DNA of 39,391 nucleotides, taken from positions 1-39,391 of IMG/VR virus record IMGVR_UViG_3300013004_000081. One strand, 5' to 3'. This DNA comes from a virus. The number at the start of each line of letters is the position of its first letter. Positions within the stretch are counted from its first letter, which is position 1. The position numbers were made by a program, and so were the translations under genes. Of the stretch, positions 15,655-34,006 are shown one piece after another. The notes below the pieces were generated by a model. It was not told the origin of the DNA and made no database searches. It saw only the letters and a list, made by a program, of their open reading frames with translations.

Positions 15655-17739
15655 ATGACCAACAAAGAGTATTATTGGCTCAATTCACACAGTAGACTTT
15701 TCCTGGAGCGCGGCTACCTTGAGCCAGGAACTACGCCTGAGGAAAGAATAAGACAGATAGCAGAAAATGCCGAAAAAATACTCAAGAAGAAGGGTTTTGC
15801 CGACAAATTTGAAGGCTACATGAAGAGAGGCTTCTACAGCCTTGCGACACCTGTATGGTGTAATTTCGGCAACAAGAGGGGCCTGCCCGTCAGTTGTTTT
15901 GGAAGTTACATTGACGACAAGATGGAGGCGATACTCACCAAGGCTGCTGAAGTCGGTATGATGAGCAAAATGGGCGGAGGAACCTCTGGATTCTTTGGAT
16001 CTTTAAGGCCCCGAGGAACCAAAATAAGTGTCGGAGGAGAAAGCAGCGGGGCCGTGCACTTCATGGAGATTTTTGACAAGGTCAGCGAGGTCATAAGCCA
16101 AGGCAGCGCCCGCAGGGGATCGTTTGCTGCTTATATGCCGATAGAGCACGCGGATATAGAAGAATTTCTCCAGGTTAGAAGCGAAGGCCACAGCATTCAA
16201 AACATGAGCATCGGCGTGACCGTCACCGACAAGTTCATGAAGGATCTGGTTGATGGGGACAAGGAGAAGAGAAGGATTTGGGCAAAAGTCATCCAGAAGC
16301 GATTTGAGACCGGATATCCGTACATCATGTTCGTGGACACGGCAAACAAGCAGGCTCCTCAGGCATACAAGGACAAGAAGCTCAAGATTAAAGCCAGTAA
16401 CCTCTGCGTCTCGGCCGACACACGGCTTCTTACAAGAAAGGGCGAAATCAGAATAGGCGACCTTGAAAATCAAAATGTTGAAGTTTGGAACGGCAACGAA
16501 TGGTCGGAAACCACCGTTGTGAAGACTGGGTCTGAACAAAAACTTTTGAGAATGAGGATTATCAAAAGAGAGCTTGACGACGAGGATACAGAAAACCTTT
16601 ATTGGATAGACCTTGACACGACAGAATACCACAAGTTCTACCTCAAGGATGGATCAGAGGTTCGTGCGTCCGAATTGTCCGAAGGGGACAGGCTTGTTAA
16701 TTTCCTAGGCCCCAACGGCAGAACCTATATGTGCGAAGTCATCAAAATAGAAGAGCTTGATGGGCTTCACGACACATACTGCGTCAATGAGCCCAAGGAG
16801 CACAAGGCCGTATTTAACGGAGTTTTAACCGGCAACTGCTCAGAAATACAACTTTATTCGGACGAACAGAACTCTTTCGTGTGTGTGCTTTCTAGTCTCA
16901 ATCTGCTTCATTGGGATGAGATCAAGGAAACAGATGCCGTGGAAACGATGGTGTACTTCCTTGATGCCGTCTGCGAGGAATTCATACAAAAGACAGAGGG
17001 CGTGAAGTACCTGGAGGCTGCGAGAAACTTTGCCATAAACCAAAGGGCTCTTGGTCTAGGGGTTCTTGGCTGGCACTCTTGTCTTCAAAGCAAAAATATC
17101 GCCTTTGAAAGCATGCAGGCTAAGATGCTCAATATTGAGATATGGAAGGCGATCAGAAGCAGAGCCGACAAAACCACGGAAGAAATGGCCAAGGAGTACG
17201 GCGAGCCGGAACTTCTAAAGGGATACGGAAGAAGAAATGTGACCACATTGGCTGTCGCCCCGACAACCTCGAGCAGTTTCATACTCGGACAGGTCAGCCC
17301 CAGCATAGAACCCCTCAACAGCAACTATTTCGTCAAAAACCTTGCAAAGGGGAAATTCACCTACAAGAACCCTTATCTCAAGGAAATACTCAAAAAATAC
17401 GACAAAAATAATGATGATGTATGGAAGAGCATTCTTGTCAAGGGCGGATCCGTACAGCACTTGGACTTCCTCAGCAAGGAGGAAAAGGATGTGTTCAAGA
17501 CATTCGGGGAAATCAGCCAAAAAGAAATAGTCATCCAAGCGGCCCAACGTCAAAAGTACATAGACCAAGCCCAGAGTCTGAATCTCACAATCCCCCCCTC
17601 AGCTTCCCCAAAGGATGTCAACAGCCTTCTGATAGAAGGCTGGGAGATGGGAATTAAAACCTTCTACTACCAGAGATCTGCAAACCCTGCACAGGAGCTT
17701 GCAAGGAGCATACTTACTTGTTCCTCGTGCGAAGCATAA
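15655..17739 (+). CDS. nrdA: Ribonucleotide reductase class I alpha subunit, split by an intein
   Basis: 694 codons encode a host protein of 550 residues interrupted by a 144-residue intein (residues 251-394). Catalytic features: Cys81 (PVSCFG), the site SNL-Cys395-SE with the radical Cys395 and Glu397, Cys410 as redox partner, and FYYQRSANP with the Tyr pair of the radical path. CSSCEA forms the C-terminal redox pair. There is no N-terminal ATP-cone, so dATP activity control is probably absent. The enzyme must splice to work, because the radical Cys is the first residue after the intein. RNR identity is certain. Confidence 0.95.
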   Translation: MTNKEYYWLNSHSRLFLERGYLEPGTTPEERIRQIAENAEKILKKKGFADKFEGYMKRGFYSLATPVWCNFGNKRGLPVSCFGSYIDDKMEAILTKAAEVGMMSKMGGGTSGFFGSLRPRGTKISVGGESSGAVHFMEIFDKVSEVISQGSARRGSFAAYMPIEHADIEEFLQVRSEGHSIQNMSIGVTVTDKFMKDLVDGDKEKRRIWAKVIQKRFETGYPYIMFVDTANKQAPQAYKDKKLKIKASNLCVSADTRLLTRKGEIRIGDLENQNVEVWNGNEWSETTVVKTGSEQKLLRMRIIKRELDDEDTENLYWIDLDTTEYHKFYLKDGSEVRASELSEGDRLVNFLGPNGRTYMCEVIKIEELDGLHDTYCVNEPKEHKAVFNGVLTGNCSEIQLYSDEQNSFVCVLSSLNLLHWDEIKETDAVETMVYFLDAVCEEFIQKTEGVKYLEAARNFAINQRALGLGVLGWHSCLQSKNIAFESMQAKMLNIEIWKAIRSRADKTTEEMAKEYGEPELLKGYGRRNVTTLAVAPTTSSSFILGQVSPSIEPLNSNYFVKNLAKGKFTYKNPYLKEILKKYDKNNDDVWKSILVKGGSVQHLDFLSKEEKDVFKTFGEISQKEIVIQAAQRQKYIDQAQSLNLTIPPSASPKDVNSLLIEGWEMGIKTFYYQRSANPAQELARSILTCSSCEA
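16405..16836 (+). mobile_element. Mini-intein in NrdA without homing endonuclease
   Basis: Residues 251-394 of the NrdA precursor. It begins with Cys (CVSADTRLLTRKG, block A) and has a block B-like TxxH (Thr323, His326) followed by DGSEVRASELSEGD. It ends with FNGVLTGN before a Cys. The block F His is present (His383), but the residue before the terminal Asn is Gly393, where most inteins have His. At 144 residues there is no room for a LAGLIDADG or HNH endonuclease. Insertion lies immediately before the thiyl-radical Cys. It can splice in cis but cannot home alone. Confidence 0.9.
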
Positions 17740-24954: not shown

Positions 24955-25203
24955 TTATCTCTTAGTTTTCGCTTTCCTTCTCGCCGACTCCATGGCTTCG
25001 TTCTCCTTTTCTTTCTGCTGGATGAATCTGCTTATCAGCCATTTTCTTTCATTGATGGGCAAAGACATGAAGTTCTCTCGGCTCTGGTGCATGTGGTAGA
25101 TGAAGAAGAACATCTCCTCCATCAAGTTGCTCCAAAGTTCTAGGCTTGAGTCCTCGATATCGTATTTTTCTTTCGCTTTGCCCGCGGGAAGAAAAAATTT
25201 GCT
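24955..25203 (-). CDS. Short -1 frame ORF, probable frameshift extension of the hub protein
   Basis: A frame open from 25203 to the stop at 24955, -1 relative to the hub gene. Its sequence is protein-like from the overlap onward (KAKEKYDIEDSSLELWSNL, MEEMFFFIYHMHQSRENFMS, LPINERKWLISRFIQQ), while the overlapped hub tail is only K/R-rich. It could be made by -1 slippage at 25191-25200, adding 78 residues to hub codon 360, or from ATG 25122 (55 residues) after a GGAG site. In T4 the gene after 26 is 51, so it may be a positional counterpart. Coding nature likely; mode of expression open. Confidence 0.6.
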   Translation of the reverse strand, partial: SKFFLPAGKAKEKYDIEDSSLELWSNLMEEMFFFIYHMHQSRENFMSLPINERKWLISRFIQQKEKENEAMESARRKAKTKR

Positions 25204-26270
25204 TCAAGCGGAAGTTCTATTTCAAAGTCCCTCATTGTGTATGGATTTGTTATGTTTATCTTCGTATCCACGCCGAACGGAGGCTCGTTAACAACTGTTC
25301 TCAAATAAGCCACATCTTGAATAGGCAACTTCTTTAGAAGCGTCTGTATTTCCAACTTGTCCGTCAGTCCCTCAATTTCCTCTATGAGATGGGCTGTTCT
25401 AAACAACAGTGTGTCATCGGCCTGACCTGAAAGATCAAAGTTCTTAGCCCTTCTTTCTCTGTATTCCTGAATCAACTGCTCATCCTTGCCCACAGCCAGC
25501 CGATATCGGAACCTATACTCGGTCGTCGGCAGGACATCCTCCAAATTTTCTGGACCAAAATCCTCTGTGCAGTAGTCAACATAAAGGTCGTTGAGGTTAA
25601 TGGTGGTTGCAAAGGTCTGATCCGAATCCGGATCCTTCACCTCTACATCGTATTCCGGCGTATACGATATGCCCCTTAAATAAATCAACATGTATGTTCT
25701 GTCTTGAGTCAAAAAATTAGCCGAGTCGTAGCTTTCCCTCATGCAGCGATTGAAGATCATATTGATGGCTTGCCCCTTCTTGACGAACCGAGGCGTAGCC
25801 AGTATCTCTTCCTCCTCGCCCGTCATGGGGCGCAAGTGGATGACGCCGTCCTTTGGGCCGTTCTCCCCGTCATAAAACTTTCCTTTTGATGGAAGCTGGA
25901 TGGGCTCGAACACCATTGTTCCCTTTGTGCCAATCCCAGCAATCAACTCCTCCAACTTGCCACTCCCCGTCACCCTCATTTCTGACTTTCTGCTCTGTTG
26001 GTCGGGCTTGGAGCCTCCCGATCTAGCATCCATCTTCTTGGAGGCCACAGCCTGCTTGAATGCCTCCGGAATCCTTCCCGTGACCTTCACCCCGGCCTCA
26101 GCAGCTGGATTTTCAAGTTCTTTTTCTACTTCGGCCGCAGCACTCTGTCGCATCGCCGCCATCCTCGCCAGTTGCTCAGCAGCATTTTCGTTTTCCGTAT
26201 TTTGAAAATCCCCATCTATCTCCTCTTGGGAAATGCTTCTTTTCTGTGGTCTGAAAGTCTCGTCGGCCAT
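25140..26270 (-). CDS. gp26: gp26-like baseplate hub protein (T4_baseplate family)
   Basis: 376 residues. The first ~100 are charged and low-complexity (QTNETENAAEQ-type composition, KPDQQSRKSE). The family core follows: MVFEPIQLPSKGKFY (119-133), then IHLRPMTGEEEEILATPRFV (144-163) and GQAINMIFNRCM, which match the layout of T4 gp26-like baseplate hub proteins. Longer than T4 gp26 (208 residues). AAAGGAG precedes the ATG. The last 15 residues overlap the -1 frame ORF and may be replaced by frameshifting. Family likely; hub location taken from T4. Confidence 0.72.
   Translation of the reverse strand: MADETFRPQKRSISQEEIDGDFQNTENENAAEQLARMAAMRQSAAAEVEKELENPAAEAGVKVTGRIPEAFKQAVASKKMDARSGGSKPDQQSRKSEMRVTGSGKLEELIAGIGTKGTMVFEPIQLPSKGKFYDGENGPKDGVIHLRPMTGEEEEILATPRFVKKGQAINMIFNRCMRESYDSANFLTQDRTYMLIYLRGISYTPEYDVEVKDPDSDQTFATTINLNDLYVDYCTEDFGPENLEDVLPTTEYRFRYRLAVGKDEQLIQEYRERRAKNFDLSGQADDTLLFRTAHLIEEIEGLTDKLEIQTLLKKLPIQDVAYLRTVVNEPPFGVDTKINITNPYTMRDFEIELPLEANFFFPRAKRKKNTISRTQA
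25191..25200 (-). promoter_or_regulatory. Candidate programmed -1 frameshift site AAATTTTTTC
   Basis: In the hub reading frame the sequence is GCA-AAT-TTT-TTC. It contains two overlapping heptamers of the X-XXY-YYZ form with correct phase, A-AAT-TTT and T-TTT-TTC. It lies in the only window (25203-25143) where both frames are open. No stimulatory structure was identified by eye. Confidence 0.55.
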
Positions 26271-27933: not shown

Positions 27934-28863
27934 TCAGATTGTTTTTTGCACTATGAATTTTGATTGACTAATTAACTGTTGGATATTTTCTATCATTTTT
28001 TTGGGGTATTCTTTATATTTTGATATTTCTATGGGAAAAGAATCCTTGCTTAGTCTTCTTTTTCCTATTATGATTGAATTTTCATACATTCGTCTTGCCT
28101 TTTCGTATTTTTGATCCTTGTATAAAATGTCCCCCAACAGACACCAGAACTCGGAGAATGTTGGGCAAACTGAAAGGCACGATAGTGCGTTCTTTGTCGC
28201 TTCATTTAGGTTGCCCGTGTGTAAATGCACTTGGGCCATATAGTACCTCAGAAGTATTCCCGATGCGCCCGCCTTAGAATCCATTATCAAATACTGATCC
28301 GCAAAAGAAAAGAACTCTTTGTACATTCTGTTGGCCAGACACGAACAAGCCATGTAGTAGTAAGGATCCGGCGAGGTTGGCTTTCTGGAGATCCATTCCC
28401 TACAGATAGACATCTTTTCATTTCGATTGTCGGGCTGAACCCCTGACAAAATAACTACATTCGGGTCGCAATCTGCCGTGTCGTCGACCAAGGTTTCATA
28501 TATCGGATTGACGAACTTGATATCCCTCCAAATCCTTATTTCCTTAGATACAATCCCTCCTTGTACAACATATATTCTTGTTGTTCTTTCGTAATTTTTA
28601 ATTTTTTCAGCCCCACTAGCCAACACCTCCCACGGATCCAAATAAAGGTTCATGCCTTCGGCGGCCAAATTGTTCCTGACCTTGGCGTAATCTCCGTCAA
28701 ACCGGACTGGAATCACTTCTGCTCCGTATTCGGCACAAATCCGATCTGTTCCGTCCGTAGACCCCAGATTGCCGACTACAATTCTGCCGATCCCGGCCAA
28801 AGAATCCAAGGTCTTTTTAATGGTTTTGGAGTTATTCTTGATTAGAATTTGTACTGTCAGCAT
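27934..28863 (-). CDS. GT2 glycosyltransferase with TPR-like C-terminus
   Basis: 309 residues. The N-terminus MLTVQILIKNNSKTIKKTLD and IVVGNLGSTDGTDRI (33-47) are the nucleotide-sugar-binding part of GT2 enzymes (NxGSxDGT form). No clear catalytic DxD is visible after it, so it may be reduced or inactive. From about residue 165, repeated helical pairs (DPYYYMACSCLANRMYKEFF, YYMAQVHLHTGNLNEATKNA, FWCLLGDILYKDQKYEKARR) look like TPR repeats. It overlaps the small upstream gene by 32 bp. Confidence 0.75.
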   Translation of the reverse strand: MLTVQILIKNNSKTIKKTLDSLAGIGRIVVGNLGSTDGTDRICAEYGAEVIPVRFDGDYAKVRNNLAAEGMNLYLDPWEVLASGAEKIKNYERTTRIYVVQGGIVSKEIRIWRDIKFVNPIYETLVDDTADCDPNVVILSGVQPDNRNEKMSICREWISRKPTSPDPYYYMACSCLANRMYKEFFSFADQYLIMDSKAGASGILLRYYMAQVHLHTGNLNEATKNALSCLSVCPTFSEFWCLLGDILYKDQKYEKARRMYENSIIIGKRRLSKDSFPIEISKYKEYPKKMIENIQQLISQSKFIVQKTI

Positions 28864-29909: not shown

Positions 29910-30482
29910 CTAGGCCAGACTTGTCCCCGCACGCGGATTAATGTCCCCAGTGAACAAGGCGCCTGTTTGCGAACAATCTTTGGTGTATGCCCTGTCGTAC
30001 CTCAAGGTCATTTCCACCGTAACATAGTCTTGGTTGCTCATATCCAGATCCCCCCATTCTATGTTGTTGGGCCAAATATTGCTGAATACCCATTCCTCCA
30101 TGACCAATCCGCAGCCATTGTACATCCTAAGGCGACCTGTCTTCTTGAAGGCCCCAGGAACCGGAGCTCTCCATGTGCCTTTGTCATCACAAGGCTCATA
30201 AATTTGCTTCAACCATTGAAATATAGGATTTTTATTTCCCTTTAGATCAAAAAGCGTCAAATTTATAGGCTTCCAGTCGGGCTTTCCAGGAAAGTATATA
30301 GTCTCGTTTAGGTGTTGTGCCTCTATTTCCTTGAAGTTAAGGCTGGGTCTAGCCGCCTTGTCCGGAGGCAATGCGTCCGTTCCGTCGTCACAAACCCCGT
30401 CTATAAAGAAAAGCCAACGGAACTTGCGCATCATGCATAAGTTTTCGCTACCCAGTCTCCCAAGACCCATTTTTTGAGCCAT
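29910..30482 (-). CDS. Second tail tube protein (gp19-like paralogue)
   Basis: 190 residues. It shares its start (MGLGRLG, then RKFRWLF) and its later pattern with the protein at 30569: INLTLFDLKGNKNPIFQWL against ITVTYYDVSGDDNMPLWDWL, and MYNGCGLVMEEW against MYTGCGDPMERW. The two are paralogues of the T4 gp19 tube family. GGAGG precedes the ATG. It is separated from the first copy by a strong terminator, so the two can be expressed at different levels. It may be a minor tube component or sit at a tube end. Confidence 0.8.
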   Translation of the reverse strand: MAQKMGLGRLGSENLCMMRKFRWLFFIDGVCDDGTDALPPDKAARPSLNFKEIEAQHLNETIYFPGKPDWKPINLTLFDLKGNKNPIFQWLKQIYEPCDDKGTWRAPVPGAFKKTGRLRMYNGCGLVMEEWVFSNIWPNNIEWGDLDMSNQDYVTVEMTLRYDRAYTKDCSQTGALFTGDINPRAGTSLA

Positions 30483-30513
30483 ATTTCCTCCAATTTAAAT
30501 ATAGTCTGTAAAT

Positions 30514-30544
30514 AAAAAAGGCCAGCGTTTCCGCTGGCCTTTTT
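30514..30544. terminator. Bidirectional intrinsic terminator between the tail tube genes
   Basis: GGCCAGCG (30520-30527), loop TTTC, CGCTGGCC (30532-30539): a perfect eight-pair GC-rich stem, with five T after it on the plus strand and six A before it (T run for leftward reading). It would end leftward transcripts of the first tube gene. Confidence 0.9.
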
Positions 30545-30568
30545 GTTTCATATTTTACATCATCAATA

Positions 30569-31249
30569 TCAACGAACGGGATCCCCAGTGAGACCAACCG
30601 AGGGCAGAGTTGTCGCTGCGGCCCCGCCGGCGTTCAATCCCATGAGGCTGCCAGCCTGCGTGCTGCATGGGCAGCAGCTGGATCTAGGATCTCTTCCGCA
30701 CAGGTTCTTGTATGAAACATTGGAGTATCTGATTGTGACTTCAACAGTGGCCTCCTCGGACGAAGAATAGTCCAACTCGCCGAAATTTACGGCTTGAGGC
30801 CAACAATCACCCAGAGTCCATCTTTCCATGGGATCTCCGCAACCTGTGTACATGGTGCAGATACCAATTCCGGCATAGCAATTTCTTCTAGAGTTTTGCT
30901 GGAGGCCTAGCGGATCGGTGAAGTTATAGACATCGGCAAGCCAGTCCCACAAGGGCATGTTATCGTCACCGCTCACATCGTAATATGTGACGGTGATAGT
31001 CTCCCAGGTCCCCTTGCCAGGAATGTAAGTCTTTCCATTGAGGAAGTTTATTTCAGTTTCTTCTATAGAAACATTCGGGCGAGCAGCCATTTTTACGAAA
31101 CTCGCCGGAACATCTTGTTTGGCAGCTAGCACTCCGCTGCCAGGCCCGCCGCTTCCGCCACTCCTTCTGACCTCAAAAGTCCATCTAAACTTTCTCTTGT
31201 GGGTGACTTGATCTCCGCCCAACCTTCCCAAACCCATTTGAATCGCCAT
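30569..31249 (-). CDS. gp19: Tail tube protein (gp19-like)
   Basis: 226 residues. It forms the inner tube of a contractile tail. Evidence is the tube-family layout (MAIQMGLGRLGG, KRKFRWTFEV, the paired W-rich segments WDWLADVYNF and MERWTLGDCWP, EATVEVTIRY), the paralogue next door and the tail sheath gene directly upstream on the same strand, as gene 18 precedes gene 19 in T4. It has a Gly/Ser insert near residue 30 and a Cys-rich stretch (CGRDPRSSCCPCS) near residue 193. AGAGGAG precedes the ATG. Confidence 0.85.
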   Translation of the reverse strand: MAIQMGLGRLGGDQVTHKRKFRWTFEVRRSGGSGGPGSGVLAAKQDVPASFVKMAARPNVSIEETEINFLNGKTYIPGKGTWETITVTYYDVSGDDNMPLWDWLADVYNFTDPLGLQQNSRRNCYAGIGICTMYTGCGDPMERWTLGDCWPQAVNFGELDYSSSEEATVEVTIRYSNVSYKNLCGRDPRSSCCPCSTQAGSLMGLNAGGAAATTLPSVGLTGDPVR

Positions 31250-31279: not shown

Positions 31280-34006
31280 TCAGAAGGTGTTCGAACCGGC
31301 ATCGAAACTTCCAGTCCTGTGGATGCTAAACTCAAGGAACATGAATTCCACGGCCCTTGTCGGCTGCACGCCGATTCTTGCCCTGAATTCATTCCTGTCA
31401 ATAACGTCAGGCGTGTTGAGTTCCTCGTCCGCCTTAATGATGAACGCCGTCAGACCTCTCGCTATCTGCACCTCACGCAAGATCCTCGTGGCTATCTCGA
31501 TGAACTTCTGGCGGAAGATTTCGTCATGCGGCTCGAACAACAATGTTCTCGAGGCGGCCCTGATTCTCTTCTCTATCGCAAACATAAGCCTTCTCACATT
31601 TACGCGATCCAAGGCTGTAGGCTTGCGCTGCAGCGTTTTCTGACCCCAAACGACATAGTCCTGGAAGTCCGCGTACTGGACGATAGGATTGATGGCGTTT
31701 CTGTTGCCGTACATCAAGTCCCTCTCTTCCAATGTCGGCCTGCTGAACACATCAGTGATTCCGGGCACCACGCCACGGTTCACGCCGGCGGGAGCAAACC
31801 AAGGAGCAGAAAGATTATCGCTCCTGGCGTAGACCGCCATGATGGAACCCGAGGGCGGAACCCAAACATCAACATTGTTGAAGGTGTCGCGAATCCTGAC
31901 CCACGGCCAGTAAAGAGCCGCGAAATCCGAGTCGAATCTCGTCGTGTTCAGAGGATGGGCGCCGTTCTGCCAGTGGATTATCTCTTGAACTGTAAGTCCG
32001 AACGGAGCGTCCACTATGGCCATGCAGTCCATTCTCATGTTCTGGCACATGTCAATCATTGCGAGGACGACACCCGTGGATGTATGACCAGGAACGGCGA
32101 CCAGATCTATGTCGATCTGCTCCGGCTCGCTCAAGGCATATATTCCCGTGTATCCGACCATGTTTCCGATGAGGAAGTAATCCTGGTCGTCCGGATCCGA
32201 CGGTATACCGTCCGAACCGCCCGACAGATCATATGTTCCATCAAGCGGCGGCGACGGGTTGCTCGTATTATCAACGGCCCTAACAAAGTCAGAAACTAGG
32301 CTCAAGAATGTTTCAACATAGAATCTGCTTGTTTCATCCTTTGTCAGATTTCCCCAAGATTCAACTTGGACTCCATTGTTGTAAACTTCCATTATGAAGT
32401 TTCCTTCCCTGACATTGTTTCTGACCACGACCTGGGTCGAGTTTCCGTCGATTCCAGGGGAATCGGCAGTGAGCGTGACAGAAACATCTCCGAACCTATT
32501 TGAATCTCCGTTAATTACGCCATAGCTTGATACGGCCGCGGCACCACTGACTCCTCTCGGCGCGCTGCCGGAGGCTGTGATGTACAAGCCCTTGTTGGAT
32601 CCGTTAGAGTCAACAACGGCCGGATTGGCCGGATCCAAAAGCGGAGCGTTGAAACCGAACAAATTGAATGTAGAACTTTCGTTCTTGACTATAATCCTTG
32701 CGTCGTTGCCCGAGTGTAGTGTTCTGAGCGAAACATAGTCACCTACGGAAATCGCCTCAAAACCACCAGGAATAGAACCTGAGTTTATCTGGTCGTTGAT
32801 CTCGTCAACCACATCTTCAGCGGTAGCGGCCGAATTGGTGGCCAAGGTAGAAAGATCAATCACTTGAACGACATTGTCAATTAGCACATTGTCGGTACCA
32901 TCCAGCACGACTTGCAGATCATACTCATCAAGCGATGTGAAATTGAAATTAGCGGCTGTGCTTCCCGTGAACTGAGCGGGCTCCATTCCGCTACCCAGCC
33001 CTGTCGCTCCTTCCGGACCACATAGGGAATCTTGCACGGACACAAGTTCCAGAACGGCTCTAGGACCGAACGAAAAGGTTGTTCTCAATCCTATTCTTGA
33101 TGTCGTATAGGTGTTCGTGTACTTGTAGTCAACAGATATTCTGTTGGCTCCTGCAGAAAGCGAATTCTGATATGTAAGTGTTATGTTTCCGTTCGGATTG
33201 TCAATAGATCCAGCTATGGCCTTGTTTGAAGGCGAAGCAACTATCGTCTTGAAGGAAAACACGCCGCTATCATTTACTTTGAATGTCTGAACAACAGTCC
33301 CGTCTATGACAATTCTGCCGGTTACCGAACCAGGAACGAGGCCTCCATTTCCGAGGCTGAATGTTACTTGGCTATCTGTTTCCGAAGTTGTCTGAATTTC
33401 TGCTTCTATGAGACTTGTTGTTTCATTTGTAGCGAAGAACTCTATTCCGTCCACCGAAGCATCCAGTTGTACATTGAGATCGTCCGCCAACTGAGTGGCT
33501 GTGTATCCGCCCGACTGAACGAGAGGATCTGGATGATTGGCATTAGCTAGGGCGACGAGCGTCTTGGAAGCAAGCACGCCGTTTAGCCTCCACCTGAAGT
33601 ACATGTCCTTGCTCAAGTTGTATGGTCCGGCTTGGCTCGAGACGAACACAACTTCGCCACCGGCAGAAGGAAGTTCGACCTGAGCCGTACGGGCGCGCTC
33701 CCAGCTCACTGCGTCGGTGTCAGCCACGCGTACGATATAAAGTTCCGTAGCAACCAACAAGTACTGCTGGGCAGCATAGATGAGGTAAGGATCGCCAGCC
33801 TCTGGATGAGGATATCCGAACACAGTATTTAACTGCCTTGTGGACTGGATCAATGTGGGAACATTGATTGGACCCTTGCTGGCAAAGCCGACCAAACCGG
33901 CCCTGTGAAAGGACTGGTCTGGAGCGATGAAGCTCAGATCTTTCTCGGTTATTCTTACCGAGGGCGAAATTGTGTTGGACGGCGGAAAGCCCTTTAGGAT
34001 TGCCAT
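31280..34006 (-). CDS. gp18: Tail sheath protein (gp18-like)
   Basis: 908 residues. The contractile sheath subunit. The N-terminus (MAILKGFPPSNTISPSVRI; HRAGLVGFASKGPINVPTLI; LYIVRVAD) and the C-terminal third (LVAVPGHTSTGVVLAMIDMC; YWPWVRIRDTF; RNAINPIVQYADFQDYVVWG; FMFLEFSIHRTGSFDAGSNT) are typical of myovirus sheath proteins. T4 gp18 has 659 residues; the extra ~250 lie in the middle as beta-rich, surface-type sequence. GGGAG precedes the ATG. It is the largest gene here. Confidence 0.92.
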   Translation of the reverse strand: MAILKGFPPSNTISPSVRITEKDLSFIAPDQSFHRAGLVGFASKGPINVPTLIQSTRQLNTVFGYPHPEAGDPYLIYAAQQYLLVATELYIVRVADTDAVSWERARTAQVELPSAGGEVVFVSSQAGPYNLSKDMYFRWRLNGVLASKTLVALANANHPDPLVQSGGYTATQLADDLNVQLDASVDGIEFFATNETTSLIEAEIQTTSETDSQVTFSLGNGGLVPGSVTGRIVIDGTVVQTFKVNDSGVFSFKTIVASPSNKAIAGSIDNPNGNITLTYQNSLSAGANRISVDYKYTNTYTTSRIGLRTTFSFGPRAVLELVSVQDSLCGPEGATGLGSGMEPAQFTGSTAANFNFTSLDEYDLQVVLDGTDNVLIDNVVQVIDLSTLATNSAATAEDVVDEINDQINSGSIPGGFEAISVGDYVSLRTLHSGNDARIIVKNESSTFNLFGFNAPLLDPANPAVVDSNGSNKGLYITASGSAPRGVSGAAAVSSYGVINGDSNRFGDVSVTLTADSPGIDGNSTQVVVRNNVREGNFIMEVYNNGVQVESWGNLTKDETSRFYVETFLSLVSDFVRAVDNTSNPSPPLDGTYDLSGGSDGIPSDPDDQDYFLIGNMVGYTGIYALSEPEQIDIDLVAVPGHTSTGVVLAMIDMCQNMRMDCMAIVDAPFGLTVQEIIHWQNGAHPLNTTRFDSDFAALYWPWVRIRDTFNNVDVWVPPSGSIMAVYARSDNLSAPWFAPAGVNRGVVPGITDVFSRPTLEERDLMYGNRNAINPIVQYADFQDYVVWGQKTLQRKPTALDRVNVRRLMFAIEKRIRAASRTLLFEPHDEIFRQKFIEIATRILREVQIARGLTAFIIKADEELNTPDVIDRNEFRARIGVQPTRAVEFMFLEFSIHRTGSFDAGSNTF

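Follow-up and report, generated by a model that had tools for sequence, protein, structure and literature searches.

The window analysed here, which is the whole 39,391 nucleotides (nt) of IMG/VR record IMGVR_UViG_3300013004_000081, is derived from an uncultured T4-type virus of bacteria. It includes a gp26-like gene (Table 1) for which the original prediction, made from the sequence of the window, had proposed a programmed -1 frameshift. The zero-frame product belongs to the T4 gp26-gp51 family, scoring above the curated cut-off for PF12322 (47.3 bits against a cut-off of 24.5, E value 2.7e-12) and also matching phrog_150 (E value 1.7e-14). Towards the end of the gene, codons 357-361 are GCA AAT TTT TTC TTC, and the T TTT TTC contained in them lies in the X XXY YYZ phase of a slippery heptamer. 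There is a stop codon in the -1 frame just upstream, and this frame is then open from 25203 to a stop at 24957-24955. A slip at the heptamer would join residues 1-360 to the 78 residues encoded in the -1 frame, and the coordinates, reading frames and lengths (360 + 78 = 438) given in the original prediction were correct. Here, the 376 amino acid (aa) zero-frame product is read as a short tail assembly chaperone, and the -1 extension as the C-terminal domain of a long one. Membership of DUF6760 (PF20546) was considered and rejected, as the scores for the window (20 bits) and for its best-scoring relative (21.7 bits) are under the curated cut-off of 27 bits.

Table 1. Features of the window, with positions and strand
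Feature	Position	Strand	Notes
gp26-like gene, zero frame	25140..26270	-	376-aa short product; PF12322 T4_baseplate, phrog_150
Slippery heptamer U UUU UUC	25191..25197	-	In phase; P-site Phe359, A-site Phe360; invariant in usable homologues
-1 frame extension	24955..25190	-	78 aa + stop; predicted helical domain, LELWSNLMEEMFFF...LPINERKW motif
Dual-coding overlap	25140..25190	-	Zero-frame Lys/Arg-rich tail and -1 frame linker; hub TAG 25142-25140
Overlapping heptamer A AAU UUU	25194..25200	-	Proposed in the original prediction; not conserved
ATG in -1 frame (NLMEEM)	25120..25122	-	Sole conserved internal start candidate
Tail tube gene 1 (gp19-like)	30569..31249	-	Upstream of gp26-like gene; profile matches
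Tail tube gene 2 (gp19-like)	29910..30482	-	Profile matches
Tail sheath gene	31280..34006	-	908 aa; profile matches

Conservation of the slip site and the -1 frame

Homologues were recovered from IMG/VR at 25 loci, one of which ends before the site, leaving 24 that were usable. T TTT TTC is present in phase and is followed by the -1 domain in all 24, and also in LR756511 (46.6 % identity in the hub gene), the -1 domain, counted from the slip site, being about 75-84 residues long. The same slip site and -1 domain were found in a contig from a metagenome-assembled genome labelled Neisseriaceae (48 % identity). In the overlap, the zero and -1 frames are both variable, with the exception of the slip site. 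An alignment of homologues had been proposed as a check on the frameshift, and it bears the proposal out.

Synonymous change was examined using 21 non-redundant relatives. No synonymous difference was seen in AAT TTT TTC TTC (codons 358-361) in any of the 210 pairs, while over the whole gene conserved residues differ in codon in 58 % of pairs. When 320 nine-codon windows were ranked, the 15 with the least synonymous change all had their first codon between 353 and 368, in the region of the site and the overlap. Loss of the heptamer accompanied by free synonymous change, which the original prediction had named as evidence against a frameshift, was therefore not seen for T TTT TTC. The two overlapping heptamers that had been proposed do not both survive this comparison. 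A AAT TTT is lost in four homologues, becoming GAATTTT in L021, L025 and L035 and GGGTTTT in L001, and was rejected as a second slippery heptamer. Hence, T TTT TTC appears to be the site under selection.

The -1 open reading frame (ORF) has a median ratio of non-synonymous to synonymous change (dN/dS) of 0.11. Past the overlap, differences in the -1 frame amount to 0.163, 0.104 and 0.470 at codon positions 1, 2 and 3, respectively, which is the pattern of a translated frame and indicates that the -1 frame evolves as protein. Its beginning, FFLP, is invariant among the homologues. The ORF is kept as protein and has no conserved start of its own at the overlap, as in an arrangement of the G/GT type.

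Frame arrangements in the wider PF12322 family

Other phages with PF12322 genes were inspected one by one for a domain in a shifted frame. A -1 frame domain lies behind a T-run in XacN1, CM1, Atu_ph07, S-RIM8, PhiW-14, ZPAH1, a KVP40-like phage and Melnitz-1. The cyanophage-type set comprises 80 loci, 78 of them untruncated. In all 78, T TTT TTC is found exactly 10 nt ahead of the stop and the -1 frame is open for 57-66 codons. The codon preceding the site is AGT (41), TCT (29), GCT (3) or AAT (2). Its final base is always T and two spellings of serine are used, though TCA is common elsewhere in these genes. These sequences are related and the probabilities computed for the preceding codon are consequently not independent.

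Sullivan et al. (2010, PMC3037559) noted that gp51 in cyanophages reaches only ~20 % of its usual length, with the first ~200 residues missing. The 'truncated gp51' of cyanophages and vibriophages corresponds to the -1 frame domain beside gp26 with T TTT TTC, whereas PMC3037559 treats these as short genes and the word 'frameshift' does not occur in its main text. The cyanophage-type -1 domain thus explains the short gp51 noted in 2010. In S-RIM8, the 45-aa 'baseplate hub assembly catalyst' (L133:3232-3369) corresponds to part of the -1 frame read from an internal start, and the same misannotation probably recurs across cyanophages.

In a second large T4-type group, made up of Mel-JY01, immuto and all 76 untruncated uncultured loci, the domain is in the +1 (equally -2) frame and the site is TTT TTT TGG in nearly all loci. 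The longest-ORF rule scored two loci of this group as -1, yet the +1 domain is present in them as well. The group includes L038-L117, L006, L007 and L002, and at least 600 related stretches were found in viral contigs. A +1 or -2 shift is likewise needed in SP-15, LIS04 and GXN1. The IMG/VR search recovered no relatives of XacN1, and the only SP-15-like sequence recovered was SP-15 itself.

In the Ackermannviridae (L223-L240; also L135 and L140), the -1 domain is retained at all 18 loci, with the site ATT TTC AT(T/C) TAA, and the site in the Ackermannviridae-type phage VAP7 is GTT TTT CGC TAATG. The shift region of the 18 loci does not include a canonical heptamer. Slippage on UUC alone or reinitiation may operate here.

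T4 genes 26 and 51 are separate, divergent genes, and both of their products match the same family models as the window gene (E values for PF12322 of 8.8e-64 and 3.9e-52). T4 gp26 ends near the slip position, and gp51 has an additional C-terminal helical part. The model phrog_634 ('baseplate hub assembly catalyst') matches residues 147-246 of T4 gp51 (E value 1.2e-23), and also the -1 domains of S-RIM8 (2e-30) and the KVP40-like phage (1.3e-21). In profile comparison, the cyanophage/KVP40-type -1 domains matched gp51 C-termini (97 %, E value 9e-11), the alignment beginning at the slip position. The comparison also paired the window -1 domain with the +1-clade domain (95 %, 4e-8), and the +1-clade domain with the cyanophage-type domain (91 %, 1.3e-6). 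The link between the window -1 domain and the gp51 C-terminus runs indirectly, through the +1-clade and cyanophage-type domains.

A pattern of a long helix, a 5-residue helix and a Pro-capped helix is shared by the AlphaFold models for a gp51 (predicted local distance difference test score, pLDDT, 86; helices 207-221, 226-230 and 234-248) and for the window -1 domain (pLDDT 74; helices 14-36, 40-44 and 48-79, with numbering that starts at the first Phe in the slip site). No solved structure was convincingly close by sequence or fold. The fold search with gp51 gave a weak match to BFVD entry A0A0A0YVM8, a 545-aa 'Tape measure chaperone' from Citrobacter phage Moon.

A tree of 45 proteins places the seven T4-type two-gene proteins together (95/94) beside the KVP40-like phage and ZPAH1, inside the users of the -1 frame. 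The three layouts (-1, +1 and two-gene) need three changes on this tree, where two is the minimum. The tree is unrooted, includes some long branches, and the fork placing the SP-15 type beside the window lineage is weak (85/74). This topology fits the origin of the T4 pair from one gene duplication in a frameshifting ancestor, with the frame having switched between -1 and +1 at least once. The specific proposal that the direction of the shift changed between -1 (T TTT TTC) and +1/-2 (TTT TTT TGG), in either direction, at the same Phe-Phe pair, with the T4 branch resorting to duplication instead, and that such a switch is unreported, is tentative, and we rate it a little below an even chance.

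Gene neighbourhood in the window

The gp26-like gene is downstream of the sheath and tube genes, with other genes between. The tube genes (29910-31249) are two neighbouring, diverged gp19-like genes behind the 908-aa sheath gene. In SP-15, LIS04, immuto and Mel-JY01, the corresponding gene is flanked on one side by the tube gene and on the other by a long gene of the tape measure type. Also among the tail genes of the window is one (27934-28863) for a protein of 309 aa that has tetratricopeptide (TPR) repeats and a start weakly resembling glycosyltransferase-2. Away from the subject of this analysis, a ribonucleotide reductase-like ORF (15655-17739) has an intein-like insert, from CVSADTRLLTRKGEIRIGDL to VFNGVLTGNC, as judged by eye from the translation.

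A probable frameshifted tail assembly chaperone and its alternatives

The conservation of the site, the codon constraint and the dN/dS values all strongly support the programmed -1 frameshift, with a short and a 438-residue product, that had been predicted. On this comparative evidence, we put the probability of low-level programmed -1 ribosomal frameshifting, yielding short and long tail assembly chaperones as lambda G/GT does, at about 0.88. The 376-aa short form would come from the majority of ribosomes, which stay in the zero frame. A minority would step back one base on U UUU UUC, with the paired tRNA-Phe moving from UUU/UUC to UUU/UUU, and would make the 438-aa long form, ending in 78 residues that are encoded in the -1 frame and would form a three-helix domain. 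Tandem -1 slippage on this heptamer is the most likely event; that the slip is ribosomal, what its efficiency is and that the products act as chaperones are points that we infer. By analogy with lambda gpG/gpGT, the tape measure protein would be coated by many copies of the short form and a few of the long form, whose extra domain would recruit the tube protein, and both forms would be expected to be absent from the finished virion.

PMC3004832 classes T4 gp26 and gp51 as hub assembly chaperones, and the Konradin record names both proteins tape measure protein assembly chaperones. Given these designations and the position of the gene between tube and tape measure genes in relatives, a pair of short and long tail assembly chaperones is a better reading of the products than a pair of structural hub proteins. 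Of the two hub products first envisaged, the short and long forms stand, but they are unlikely to be parts of the hub, as gp26 and gp51 are their paralogous short and long counterparts in T4.

Some observations weigh against this interpretation. Neither a conserved downstream stem-loop nor an upstream Shine-Dalgarno-like stimulator was found among the homologues, which makes a low slip frequency likely. No tape measure gene was identified beside the gp26-like gene in the window, and direct profile comparison of the window-group -1 domain with the gp51 C-terminus was not significant. In addition, the conserved internal ATG could yield a free product of 55 residues.

This last point leads to the possibility that there is no frameshift, and that the -1 ORF constitutes a small gene of its own, with translation starting at the ATG at 25122 or depending on coupling to termination at the hub stop. 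The NLMEEM ATG is conserved and is preceded in the window by GGAG a few bases upstream, and fragments of this kind, such as that of S-RIM8, are annotated in databases. However, a separate gene leaves unexplained the absence of synonymous change at AAT TTT TTC TTC, the invariant FFLP start and the T TTT TTC in 78 of 78 cyanophage-type loci. Between the slip site and the ATG, the -1 frame is almost devoid of start codons, bar a few TTG, and T4 gp51 is an in-frame fusion of both parts. We consider this explanation highly improbable.

RNA polymerase slippage on the T6 run would generate a mixed mRNA population without any involvement of the ribosome, and T-runs (T6C or T7) are indeed involved in most groups. 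Against this, a run of six T is short for transcriptional slippage. The run also keeps a fixed position relative to the codons, and its end in the -1 groups is mostly C, giving a perfect tandem re-pairing that a polymerase does not need. Slippage by the polymerase is therefore very unlikely. An assembly error, or decay of a longer hub gene that left the -1 ORF as its broken end, has nothing beyond the frame change itself in its favour and is refuted by the recurrence of this arrangement across dozens of independent contigs as well as finished isolate genomes, and by purifying selection on the -1 frame.

Programmed ribosomal frameshifting thus remains the preferred reading, and it has close parallels. 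In lambda, gpG and gpGT are likewise a chaperone pair in tail assembly (PMC5009743), but the slip site in the window is U UUU UUC and no sequence link to lambda gpG was found. The same 2016 review describes G-T frameshifting as conserved among long-tailed phages except T4. T4 gp26 and gp51 are, like the window products, short and long members of PF12322, the long one with a helical C-terminal domain, but T4 has two divergent paralogous genes where the window has one gene and a slip site. The chaperone of the Vandenendeviridae/Andersonviridae uses a conserved GTTTTT -1 site and belongs to another phage clade (PMC12846349).

The view in the original prediction that no such frameshift had been reported for a T4-type gp26 gene is out of date. 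According to PMC10885494 and PMC12846349, T4-like tail assembly chaperones were identified by Vladimirov, Gautam and Davidson (2022; Virology 566:9-15). As cited there, some T4-like phages encode the short form and a fused long form in two genes, without recourse to a frameshift (PMC10885494), and poly-T slip sites occur in T4-like short genes (PMC12846349). As far as these citations go, those chaperones resemble that of the window in being of the PF12322 type, with short and long forms and poly-T sites, and the window differs in coming from an uncultured lineage. The basic finding of a frameshifted chaperone in T4-like phages should accordingly be treated as already known in kind, with the uncultured lineage as new material. 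Within the open-licence PMC literature, a switch between -1 and +1 inside one family is possibly new.

For annotation, where a database 'baseplate hub subunit' is accompanied by an ORF that has been overlooked or labelled 'truncated gp51', the two very probably make up a single chaperone gene that is read with a programmed frameshift, a correction that extends to cyanophages and many uncultured viruses. The -1, +1 and duplicated solutions form a comparative series for the production of two chaperone forms at a fixed ratio. If the switch in direction is real, the PF12322 series would show how a programmed frameshift arises, changes direction and becomes unnecessary.
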